A stretch of 48,304 bases of DNA from assembly GCA_017882685.1 (NCBI GenBank), contig JADGPA010000178.1:1-48304 (forward strand), in the 5' to 3' direction. The notes below the pieces were generated by a model that saw only the letters and a list, made by a program, of their open reading frames with translations, did no database searches and was not told where the DNA came from. Every line of letters begins with the position of its first letter. Within the stretch, counting starts at the first letter, position 1. Made by a program: the position numbers and the translations under genes. Shown one piece after another: positions 27,435-29,712 of this stretch. Origin of the DNA: Propionibacteriaceae bacterium (GTDB lineage: Bacteria > Actinomycetota > Actinomycetes > Propionibacteriales > Propionibacteriaceae).

Positions 27435-27455
27435 GCCACAGCTTGATCCTGTGGC
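27435..27455 (+). terminator. Hairpin after the SUF operon
   Basis: GCCACAG, loop CTTGATC, CTGTGGC: a perfect 7-bp stem 21 nt after the sufT stop, before the next promoter region. No U-run; likely the SUF terminator by position. Confidence 0.45.
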
Positions 27456-27482
27456 CGACGGGCTTTGCTTCATACGGGAAAA

Positions 27483-27502
27483 GTGATATCACTTAGATAT
27501 CA
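27483..27502. promoter_or_regulatory. Tandem GATATCA boxes in the SPFH gene leader (candidate operator)
   Basis: The sequence contains the palindrome GTGATATCAC (27483-27492) and a second GATATCA (27496-27502); the two GATATCA copies start exactly 11 bp apart, one helical turn. They lie 27 nt upstream of the SPFH start, ahead of its GAAGGAG site. Ribbon-helix-helix proteins often bind such turn-spaced short boxes, and one is encoded right downstream. Confidence 0.6.
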
Positions 27503-27528
27503 GTTTTTCTGTGAAGGAGTGAGGTTCG

Positions 27529-28500
27529 ATGTCTGAGGAAACCGGATTCGATGACCAGGCGGCCACCGGTGGTGAGCCGGCCGGAGTGCCGGTGGGTCAC
27601 GCAGGAGCCAGGGTGGGCGTGGAGGAGCGAGCGGCCTGGACGGCCAACGGTTTCGTCCCGCTCGTCTTGTCGATCGTTTGCTTCATCGGCGCGCTCAGGA
27701 GCTTCATCTACCTGGCCGAGCGTGGCGATGCCGGACTGGACGCCGGACCGTGGGGATGGTTCGCCGCACTGCTGGTCGTCCTGACGGGGCTCCTGGCAGC
27801 CTCGATCACGGTCGTCTCTCCCGGCGACACCCGGGTGTTGCAGTTCTTCGGCCGCTACATCGGAACCGTCCGCCGCCCCGGGCTGACCATGGTGGTCCCG
27901 GCCTCCAAGGGCCGCAAGGTCTCGGTGAAGGTGCGCAACTTCGAGACCCATGAACTCAAGGTGAACGACGCAGACGGTAACCCGGTGAACATCGCGGCGA
28001 TCATCGTCTGGCAGGTCGCCGACACAGCTAGGGCGGTGTTCGCCGTTGAGAACTACACCGGCTTCGTCGAGGTGCAGGCCGAATCGGCCCTGCGTCACGT
28101 GGCGACCAGCCATCCCTACGACAACGCCGGACCGGGGGAGGAGTCGCTGCGCGGGTCCACGGATCTGGTCGCTGCGGAACTCGCAGCGGAAGTGGCGGAC
28201 CGGATCGCCATCGCCGGACTCGAGGTGGTGGAAGCCCGGATCTCCAGCCTCGCCTACGCCCCTGAGATCGCCCACGCCATGCTGCAGCGGCAGCAGGCCA
28301 CAGCGGTGATCGCAGCAAGGGAGAAGATCGTCGAAGGTGCGGTCAGCATGGTGCAGGGCGCGTTGCGCCAGCTCGAGGCCAACGACGTCGTGACGATGGA
28401 CGACGAGCGCAAGGCGGCCATGGTCTCCAACCTGCTGGTCGTGCTGTGCAGTTCGTCCCAGGCCACGCCCGTGATCAACACCGGATCGCTGTACACCTGA
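27529..28500 (+). CDS. SPFH/band-7 domain membrane protein
   Basis: A 323-residue protein with two hydrophobic segments (about residues 43-66 and 80-101) followed by an SPFH/band-7 domain: VVSPGDTRVLQFFGRYIGTVRRPGL, VNIAAIIVWQVADTARA, LRHVATSHPYD. A region rich in Ala/Gln (MLQRQQATAVIAAREKIVEGA) matches the domain's helical end. Relatives (stomatin, flotillin) oligomerise at membranes; the actinobacterial role is not known to me. ATG 27529 follows GAAGGAG. The gene forms a two-gene unit with the ribbon-helix-helix protein 2 nt downstream. Confidence 0.9.
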   Translation: MSEETGFDDQAATGGEPAGVPVGHAGARVGVEERAAWTANGFVPLVLSIVCFIGALRSFIYLAERGDAGLDAGPWGWFAALLVVLTGLLAASITVVSPGDTRVLQFFGRYIGTVRRPGLTMVVPASKGRKVSVKVRNFETHELKVNDADGNPVNIAAIIVWQVADTARAVFAVENYTGFVEVQAESALRHVATSHPYDNAGPGEESLRGSTDLVAAELAAEVADRIAIAGLEVVEARISSLAYAPEIAHAMLQRQQATAVIAAREKIVEGAVSMVQGALRQLEANDVVTMDDERKAAMVSNLLVVLCSSSQATPVINTGSLYT

Positions 28501-28502
28501 GC

Positions 28503-28727
28503 ATGGCCGAGCCGACCGGGCCGGGCCCGCAGCGGGTGGAGCGAAAGCCAATCCTGCTGCGGCTCGACCCCGCGGTCCATGAGGCGCTCGCCCGCTGGGC
28601 TGCCGACGACCTGCGATCGCTCAACGCCCACATCGAGATGCTGCTGCGCCAGTCCCTCGCGAAGACCGGGCGCGCACCGAAGGACGCGGGCCCGCTTCCG
28701 AAACGGGGCCGCCCGACGACGTCCTAG
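28503..28727 (+). CDS. Small ribbon-helix-helix (Arc-like) DNA-binding protein
   Basis: A 74-residue basic protein. A short beta strand (PILLRLD, about 16-22), a helix (PAVHEALARWAADDLRS) and a second helix (LNAHIEMLLRQSLAKTG) match the Arc/CopG fold; a disordered basic tail follows. ATG 28503 begins 2 nt after the SPFH stop; no upstream codon of the longer open frame is convincing. The 'AHIEMLLRQSL' pattern is the one annotated as Arc or HicB-like in many actinobacteria. It probably represses its own operon through the GATATCA boxes (inference). Confidence 0.85.
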   Translation: MAEPTGPGPQRVERKPILLRLDPAVHEALARWAADDLRSLNAHIEMLLRQSLAKTGRAPKDAGPLPKRGRPTTS

Positions 28728-29653
28728 CGGGGCGTGAGGTTCACGCCGGCAAGCATGCAGCGGACGGAGCCGCCGGCCAGCTCGATGGTGGGTATCGAGA
28801 GCGGAAGCAGCCGGGCCGATCGCTCGATCACGGCCCGCTGGCCAGTCGTCAGCGCGGCAGCGGCCCGGGACGACAGTGCCAGCAGGTGTCCGTCTCTCCC
28901 GGTGAGCTCCATCGCATTGCCTGCGAAGTCGGCCACCTGGGCGAAGCTCAGGTCGAGCACCGTCCGTCCACTCTCCTCGAGCCGTCCCGCCACCTCCGCG
29001 CGGCGGTCGGGGTCGCTGATTGCGGCGAGGCAGGCAAGGGCGTACTCGGTGGCGATCGTGAGCAGCACGTTGGTGTGGTAGATCGGCCGACCATCTGCGC
29101 CGGCGGTGGGGAAGGCCATCGGCTCGTAGCCGAAGGCCGTGCAGAAACGCTCGAGGATCACCGGGTCGGCCCGGTGCGAGCTGGCAACGTAGGCGATCCG
29201 CTCGAGGTGATCGAACACCATCGCTCCGGTGCCCTCGAGGAACAGGTCGTCGTACTCCAGCCCCGAGTAGTCGATGACCTCCTGCACCCGGTAGTTGCTC
29301 TTCAGCAGGTCGATCACGTCGCTGCGGCGCTCCCGGCGCCGGTTGGGCGCGTACATCGGGTAGATCGCGATCCTGCCGCCGTGGTGGGTGGAGAACCAGT
29401 TGTTCGGGAACACCGAGTCGGGTGTGTCCAGCTGCCCGAAGTCGTCGAAGACGTGCACCCGCACGCCGGCCGCAGCCAGGGCGTCAACGCAGTCGTCGAA
29501 CTCGTGCCGGGCAGCGCTGGCCACAGCATCGCTCGTCGACTGCCGCGGCGGCGCCTGGAAGGCGTTGTCGGCCAGCGTCTGCGGGTTCACGGCGAACCGG
29601 TGCGGGCGCACCATCACCACCGCCGTTGGCGCCTGCACGTTCCGGAAGTTCAC
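28724..29653 (-). CDS. Amidinohydrolase of the arginine deiminase superfamily, CtlX-like
   Basis: From GTG 29653, with GAGGAGG 5 nt upstream, the product has 309 residues (a TTG at 29692 is in frame but overlaps a -10 box). Motifs include DTPDSVFPNNWFSTH, LEGTGAMVFDHLERIAYVA, YHTNVLL and the C-terminal GGSVRCMLAG with the likely nucleophile Cys299. These fit the CtlX/dimethylarginine-hydrolase branch, which cleaves guanidino or citrulline-type compounds; the true substrate is open. The gene converges on the RHH gene, sharing a CTAG stop palindrome, and diverges from the transglutaminase-like gene. Confidence 0.85.
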   Translation of the reverse strand: MNFRNVQAPTAVVMVRPHRFAVNPQTLADNAFQAPPRQSTSDAVASAARHEFDDCVDALAAAGVRVHVFDDFGQLDTPDSVFPNNWFSTHHGGRIAIYPMYAPNRRRERRSDVIDLLKSNYRVQEVIDYSGLEYDDLFLEGTGAMVFDHLERIAYVASSHRADPVILERFCTAFGYEPMAFPTAGADGRPIYHTNVLLTIATEYALACLAAISDPDRRAEVAGRLEESGRTVLDLSFAQVADFAGNAMELTGRDGHLLALSSRAAAALTTGQRAVIERSARLLPLSIPTIELAGGSVRCMLAGVNLTPR

Positions 29654-29675
29654 CGCGGCCTCCTCATCCGACGCA

Positions 29676-29681
29676 AGCTTA
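29676..29681 (-). promoter_or_regulatory. Candidate -10 (TAAGCT) for the CtlX-like gene
   Basis: TAAGCT on the minus strand, 22 nt before GTG 29653; a start near 29669 would give a 16-nt leader with GAGGAGG. It overlaps the region of the opposite promoter. Confidence 0.4.
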
Positions 29682-29685
29682 GGGT

Positions 29686-29712
29686 TTGACAAGGGGCAGG
29701 GCAGGGCAGGAT
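29686..29712 (+). promoter_or_regulatory. Candidate promoter for the transglutaminase-like gene
   Basis: TTGACA (29686-29691) is a perfect consensus -35. CAGGAT (29707-29712), 15 nt downstream, is a weak -10, ending 6 nt before GTG 29719. This again suggests a leaderless start. The short spacer lowers confidence. Confidence 0.4.

Follow-up and report, generated by a model that had tools for sequence, protein, structure and literature searches.

The systems closest to the locus described here are the ribbon-helix-helix (RHH) autorepressors and the regulators that are held at the membrane, both of which are known. The Arc repressor of phage P22, a member of the MetJ/Arc group, binds two half-sites of the TAGA type lying about a turn apart, and the half-site of FitA is TGCTATCA. 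PutA and Mlc come off DNA when they are bound at the membrane; PutA, which uses an RHH domain, combines enzyme and repressor in a single polypeptide, and the membrane anchor of Mlc is a sugar transporter. For most bacterial SPFH proteins we know of no established function or signal. The available part of Hinderhofer et al. (2009, PMC2636767) describes conserved operons with NfeD only for the groups SPFH1, SPFH2, and SPFH5, and the other groups as having no neighboring NfeD gene. In the accessible portion of a further source (PMC3920265), the RHH protein Omega of pSM19035 is described together with NATCACN heptads. In the literature searched, where subscription journals and preprints are thinly covered, we found neither a pairing of a bacterial SPFH gene with an RHH, HicB, Arc, or CopG gene (CopG by title; RHH turned up solely in the title of a cited reference) nor any SPFH protein that comes with a dedicated transcription factor, in agreement with the first-pass annotation of this DNA, which knew of no described system of this form.

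The window, that is, the whole analyzed stretch of 48,304 nucleotides, is one contig of a draft Propionibacteriaceae genome (2.99 Mb, 88.9% complete). On its forward strand, an SPFH/band-7 gene (27529..28500, 323 residues) is followed after 2 nt by the gene of an Arc-like RHH protein of 74 residues (28503..28727), and these open reading frames agree with the arrangement originally annotated. The assignment of the first product relies on the Pfam Band_7 domain (84.5 bits against a cut-off of 23.6, E-value 1.2e-23), on hydropathy, and on profile matches in the PDB to QmcA (8z5g, 2.4e-8), PH stomatins, human stomatin, and HflK. Identity with the HflK equivalog (TIGR01933) was rejected at 23.4 bits against a curated cut-off of 159.4, and no NCBIfam family scored above its cut-off for either protein of the window. 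Two hydrophobic stretches, at about residues 42-63 and 75-98, precede the SPFH domain; from hydropathy and charge, the protein appears to be seated in the membrane with the SPFH domain and the C-terminus in the cytoplasm, and, by homology to QmcA and stomatin, it probably assembles into a ring or a cage.

The small protein was identified by its open reading frame, by Pfam (HicB at 1.3e-5, above the cut-off; Arc at 0.008, below it), and by matches of the RHH profile to the Arc repressor structures 1u9p (4.6e-8) and 1arq (9.2e-4); a further match, 9pio chain G, is likewise an Arc sequence. Among 80 RHH members, the families matched were RHH_5 (54/80), Arc (41/80), and HicB (35/80). The protein ends in a KRGRP tail (residues 67-71, codons at 28701..28715, forward strand, as read from the sequence), which we take to be AT-hook-like. 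A [KR]-[RP]-GRP stretch is frequent at the C-terminal end of RHH proteins from Actinomycetota; GRP is present in 30 of the 80 aligned proteins, mostly actinobacterial by record title, and with this low count an AT-hook tail was dismissed as a core part of the system. Public names of the RHH gene beside SPFH differ, and include HicB family antitoxin, Arc family DNA-binding protein, and PTS ascorbate transporter subunit IIC (RHH genes at L228 2713-2904, L253 3297-3497, and L254 3238-3435).

On the 5' side of the leader lie suf-type genes, including an FeS_assembly_P gene just upstream of SPFH. On the 3' side, the pair is followed on the opposite strand (28724-29692) by a homolog of the citrulline-utilization hydrolase CtlX (NF046062, 402 bits against a cut-off of 334), and no NfeD gene is found beside the SPFH gene of the window. 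An inverted repeat with 7-bp arms, GCCACAG-N7-CTGTGGC, lies at positions 27435-27455, after the FeS_assembly_P gene and ahead of the SPFH promoter; it possibly marks the end of the suf-type operon, and no run of T follows it. Given this repeat, the boxes described below are not the only conspicuous structure of the leader, as had been asserted. A rough clustering of open reading frames from 80 loci, in GC-rich DNA where such calling is poor, gave no third operon gene: nothing beyond SPFH recurred in more than eight loci.

Two GATATCA boxes are located in the leader on the forward strand, at 27485-27491 and 27496-27502, at the annotated start-to-start distance of 11 bp, and the first indeed falls within a perfect palindrome, GTGATATCAC (27483-27492). 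Box 1, the octamer TGATATCA kept in relatives (27484..27491, forward strand), lies inside AAAAGTGATATCACTT and holds a putative -10 hexamer, TATCAC (27487-27492). Box 2, AGATATCA (27495..27502, forward strand), starts 11 bp further on; some relatives carry GATAT at +11 or +22. By its position, TTTGCT (27464..27469, forward strand) is the putative -35 element, with TTGCTT (27465-27470) as an alternative. Taken alone, the window is weak evidence, with four matches to GATATCA against a shuffle mean of 1.21 and four of 100 shuffles reaching four. The exact box pair occurs once in the 2.99-Mb genome, at this leader, and the next best pair, AGATAACAGTTTGATATCG (G000:C200:32996-33014, on either strand), has two mismatches. 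It is the conservation in relatives, not the counts within the window, that places the box pair far beyond chance as judged from sequence.

The gene pair is widely conserved. In a search of 60 relatives, SPFH matches came from 53 genomes, about 32 of them near full-length orthologs and the rest distant SPFHs, and among the 30 best loci an RHH gene stands behind SPFH in all except one (L017). When genome contigs were scanned with the SPFH alignment and the best 80 of at least 584 loci were taken, which is not a random sample, 75 of these 80 had an RHH gene directly 3' of SPFH and in the same orientation. By record title, the 80 loci span about ten phyla or groups, namely Actinomycetota, Bacillota, Acidobacteria, Gemmatimonadetes, Gammaproteobacteria, Deinococcota, Bacteroidetes, Ignavibacterium, Planctomycetota, and Eisenbacteria, with many metagenome-assembled genomes among them; a system confined to Actinobacteria was rejected on this distribution.

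Searches that start from the RHH protein lead to the same pair. Among 396 genomes from the phylum, 48 have RHH, and SPFH lies just upstream on the same strand in all 30 actinobacterial RHH loci examined (that of the window included), of which 23 carry the octamer. In Bacillota (199 genomes), RHH is present in 51 genomes, SPFH in 48, and both in 46; SPFH is again just upstream in 30/30 RHH loci examined and the octamer in 25/30, three of these loci repeating already named ones. In the Kutzneria family (150 genomes), all 93 genomes with SPFH also contain RHH, adjacent in 87 (gap of at most 377 nt) and split in six. The first-pass annotation had proposed a search for adjacent SPFH and Arc-like genes in actinobacteria, and its reading was to fall if pair or boxes were not conserved among relatives; the outcome was the opposite. 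SPFH matches were also obtained from 14 plasmid and seven phage records, the phage records all lacking annotation. Two of the latter, unverified Listeria and Enterococcus records (L251 and L252), contain an SPFH gene without RHH, box, or tail, and may represent host DNA.

The boxes are conserved together with the pair. After one duplicate had been removed, 95 of 109 loci had the octamer TGATATCA within 250 nt upstream of SPFH, compared with 0.56 on average and three at most in 200 shuffles, which excludes a chance motif; the runner-up palindromic octamer reached 5/109. Further GATAT copies lie around the octamer at +11 (26/95), +22 (13/95), and -11 (7/95). On its own the strict double box lacks specificity, and as a phylum marker it failed, matching in 12 of 296 genomes, where only the copy of the window is at an SPFH gene and two are at FitA-like RHH genes. 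Among the 154 loci with RHH and octamer, scanned over 32 positions for a 5/6 match to TTGACA, 79 have such a hexamer, and in 29 of the 79 it precedes the start of the octamer by exactly 20 nt, which is the peak. This distance corresponds to a 17-nt spacer between the TTGACA-like hexamer and TATCAC/T, and therefore box 1 probably overlaps an extended -10 element and box 2 would cover the expected transcription start. A search of 40 named genomes with SPFH for TGATATCANNNNGATAT returned 25 rows at about 19 distinct places in 17 genomes (backward control, two); 12 of these places are before SPFH and seven elsewhere, a distribution that does not support a large regulon.

The box can be compared between SPFH loci with and without RHH. 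In the 193 loci with enough flank, RHH and octamer occur together in 154, RHH only in 26, neither in 12, and the octamer only in one, that is, the octamer is present in 154/180 loci with RHH versus 1/13 without (Fisher p 7.8e-9), where the RHH-less class, 13 loci here and three in the later test set, includes some unverified phage or plasmid records. Scoring the pair TGATATCANNNTGATATCA at 12/16 or better in 190 loci gave both in 168, RHH only in 10, neither in 11, and the box only in one. The 10 of 178 RHH loci with a poor or absent box (below 12/16) include L084, L144, and L256, and L348 from the test set is a similar case. On a quick SPFH tree, RHH changes nine times, yielding eight independent pairs. 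The box changes the same way as RHH in a mean of 5.7 (octamer) or 6.3 (pair score) of these and the opposite way in 0.0, with a median sign-test p of 0.031 and ranges up to 0.375 (octamer) and 0.219 (pair score); on a tree built without the tail columns the same holds in about 6.8/8 (median p 0.016). In these comparisons the box tracks the RHH gene rather than SPFH.

The one octamer-bearing locus among the 13 without adjacent RHH is L110, from Kutzneria sp. CA-103260, where the sole RHH gene lies alone about 0.75 Mb away. This genome and five others of its family are the split genomes mentioned above, and all six have TGATATCACATTGATAG in the SPFH leader and TGATATCTACATGCTAG in that of the solitary RHH gene. 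One of them (G712) keeps the boxes in spite of diverged flanks. Because the six share one event or few, they are to be counted as one natural experiment. Solitary RHH genes were seen elsewhere too. For instance, a solitary Arc-like gene of Bacillota (L303, G670:C1:2101000-2103500) has TGATATAATTTTGATATCA 49 nt before the RHH domain and no SPFH gene in that stretch, and the solitary or orphaned RHH genes L249, L259, and L300 have no evident box.

We suggest that the RHH protein very probably binds the boxes and represses the operon. Self-repression, first proposed from the window, draws support from the occurrence of pair and boxes in many phyla, from the box tracking RHH on the SPFH tree, and from the presence of boxes at both promoters of the split genomes. 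For the unit as a whole we favor, with reasonable though far from complete confidence, an autoregulated membrane-sensing module, in which the RHH protein represses its own operon and the tail of the SPFH protein docks it at the membrane. The best-surviving alternative is plain autorepression by RHH, with the tail serving SPFH assembly and retained by those lineages that keep RHH. It suffices for the pair, the boxes, and the split genomes. It also fits human stomatin, whose C-terminal strand, in the accessible part of the report (PMC12344292), forms a barrel at the narrow end of the cage where the last 8-10 residues are unresolved; by analogy, the SPFH tail would sit at the same end, and could serve assembly or gating there. 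The distribution of the tail argues against this alternative, and we regard it as a serious but improbable explanation.

The tail of the window protein, PVINTGSLYT (residues 314-323, codons at 28468..28497, forward strand), is the proposed docking site for RHH, a role suggested by its co-occurrence with that gene. The C-terminal consensus of SPFHs with RHH is P-[VI]-[VI]-N-[TA]-G-[ST]-L-Y, and SPFHs without RHH mostly differ from it. The strict form N-x-G-[ST]-L-Y, a motif first found post hoc, ahead of the Pseudomonadota test described below, is present in 167/178 proteins with RHH versus 1/12 without (Fisher p 4e-11). The motif as later fixed gives 176/180 versus 1/13 and, in all 201 loci with the flank filter lifted, 179/183 versus 2/18. 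The two tailed loci without an adjacent RHH are L110, where RHH is elsewhere, and L191, where the box is present and the contig ends 311 nt after SPFH. The SPFH protein ends zero, one, or two residues past the tail aromatic in 181 of 183 loci with RHH (zero or one in 180). In the eight independent pairs of the tree, the tail goes the same way as RHH in 6.8 and the opposite way in 0.0 (median p 0.016).

Three further observations bear on the tail. In the split genomes it is kept in 6/6 SPFHs with no RHH gene behind them, so it is not merely a part of the leader of the next gene. A second SPFH gene of genome G824 (L301), with no RHH beside it, has neither tail nor box, and the same genome contains a paired SPFH, which speaks against a tail retained for assembly. 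Finally, under a rule set in advance, 398 genomes of Pseudomonadota were searched, giving SPFH in 46, 45 of them new. The 42 loci with RHH have the tail in 42/42, a pair score of at least 12 in 41/42, and the exact octamer in 36/42, and the three without RHH, a small class, have the tail, the pair score, and the octamer in 0/3 each. Sequestration of the small protein by its membrane partner, as the first-pass annotation proposed, gains support from a tail nearly confined to loci with RHH; a direct contact between tail and RHH seems to us slightly better than an even bet.

A toxin-antitoxin-like arrangement, in which excess SPFH is harmful and RHH is an antidote that binds the tail and co-represses the operon together with SPFH, appears considerably less plausible than plain autorepression. 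In the available parts of two sources (PMC2812701, PMC3920265), RHH antitoxins of the HicB, FitA, and RelB types autorepress with the partner as co-repressor, and the HicB match of the window protein, together with the NCBI name of HicB-family antitoxin for one such RHH, is in keeping with this. So is the finding that in two actinobacterial genomes (L154 and L155, both 1501-1518) a FitA-like RHH gene without SPFH starts directly behind TGATATCAAAACGATATCA; a different RHH family thus seems to use a nearly identical operator. The partner, however, is a membrane protein of the SPFH type instead of a nuclease and comes first in the operon; two of the 48 Bacillota genomes with SPFH are without RHH, so SPFH alone is tolerated at least there. 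A PADLOC search for anti-phage systems returned no match for the SPFH or the RHH protein, which also led us to set aside an anti-phage system. A toxin-antitoxin module as such, with a HicA, PIN, or RelE toxin, is rejected by SPFH being the partner in both sets of 30 RHH-first loci.

Activation of the operon by RHH would place boxes at the promoter just as well, and some RHH proteins, such as AmrZ in the part of the literature available, both activate and repress; we nevertheless consider it very unlikely given the position of box 1 on the -10 element and of box 2 on the expected start region, which is that of a repressor. Least credible of all is a reading of the octamer as nothing more than an extended -10 element (TGnTATCAT) that does not serve as an operator, since, although the octamer's 17-nt distance from a -35-like hexamer fits and a -10 element alone would conserve part of it, the octamer is missing from 12 of 13 SPFH promoters without RHH, copies recur at +11 and +22, and the split RHH promoters carry boxes too.

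Returning to the membrane-sensing module, we propose that the RHH protein would bind as dimers to TGATATCA boxes spaced by one turn of the helix. With box 1 on the extended -10 element and the next boxes over the start region, such binding would block RNA polymerase, as promoter anatomy and co-evolution suggest. The extreme C-terminus of the SPFH protein may be the docking peptide, a role that its co-occurrence with RHH points to, and free tails in excess would then remove the repressor from DNA, so that the amount or state of SPFH assemblies could set the level of operon expression. Provided that docking occurs, we lean toward its derepressing the operon rather than co-repressing it. A bolder version, which we put forward tentatively and think somewhat more apt to fail than to hold, makes the SPFH assemblies repressor traps: many tails at the open end of the cage would bind RHH dimers cooperatively, and the cage, by assembling or opening as the membrane state changes, would release or capture the repressor. 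In this version the cage, the repressor, and the 11-bp-phased operator would form one ancient, horizontally moving sensor of about ten phyla, and a new route would lead from membrane state to transcription.

An SPFH subfamily with its own transcription factor, operator, and short mutable peptide would make its signal readable by a promoter fusion. It offers a testable function both for proteins annotated only as SPFH domain-containing and for small proteins named antitoxins, and it is a compact case of a probable operator sequence nearly unchanged across phyla. The three parts, SPFH gene, RHH gene, and box, recur together across many groups of bacteria and appear to have co-evolved, which suggests that bacteria may link a membrane protein straight to the control of its gene.

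Several features of this unit are shared with known systems, and others set it apart. The RHH protein belongs by profile to the same fold family as Arc and shares an R-S-x-N stretch with it, whereas here the putative operator consists of TGATATCA arrays, the partner gene codes for SPFH, and many phyla have the unit on the chromosome. The Omega heptads contain ATCAC, as does GATATCAC; Omega, so far as the available part of its source describes it, works with heptad arrays in plasmid functions, in contrast to the 11-bp phased octamers here. With FitAB, RelBE, and HicAB, the locus has in common a two-gene operon, a probable RHH autorepressor, a putative operator over the -10 element, and a likely protein partner, but it lacks a toxin, its membrane SPFH partner is encoded first, and a tail motif stands at the SPFH C-terminus. 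Like the NfeD operons described for SPFH1, SPFH2, and SPFH5 in the part of the source available, it combines an SPFH gene with a conserved operon partner, which here is predicted to bind DNA and is not NfeD. Finally, if docking derepresses the operon, the unit would resemble PutA and Mlc, with the difference that here the presumed repressor is a separate protein and the tail of an SPFH protein would hold it.
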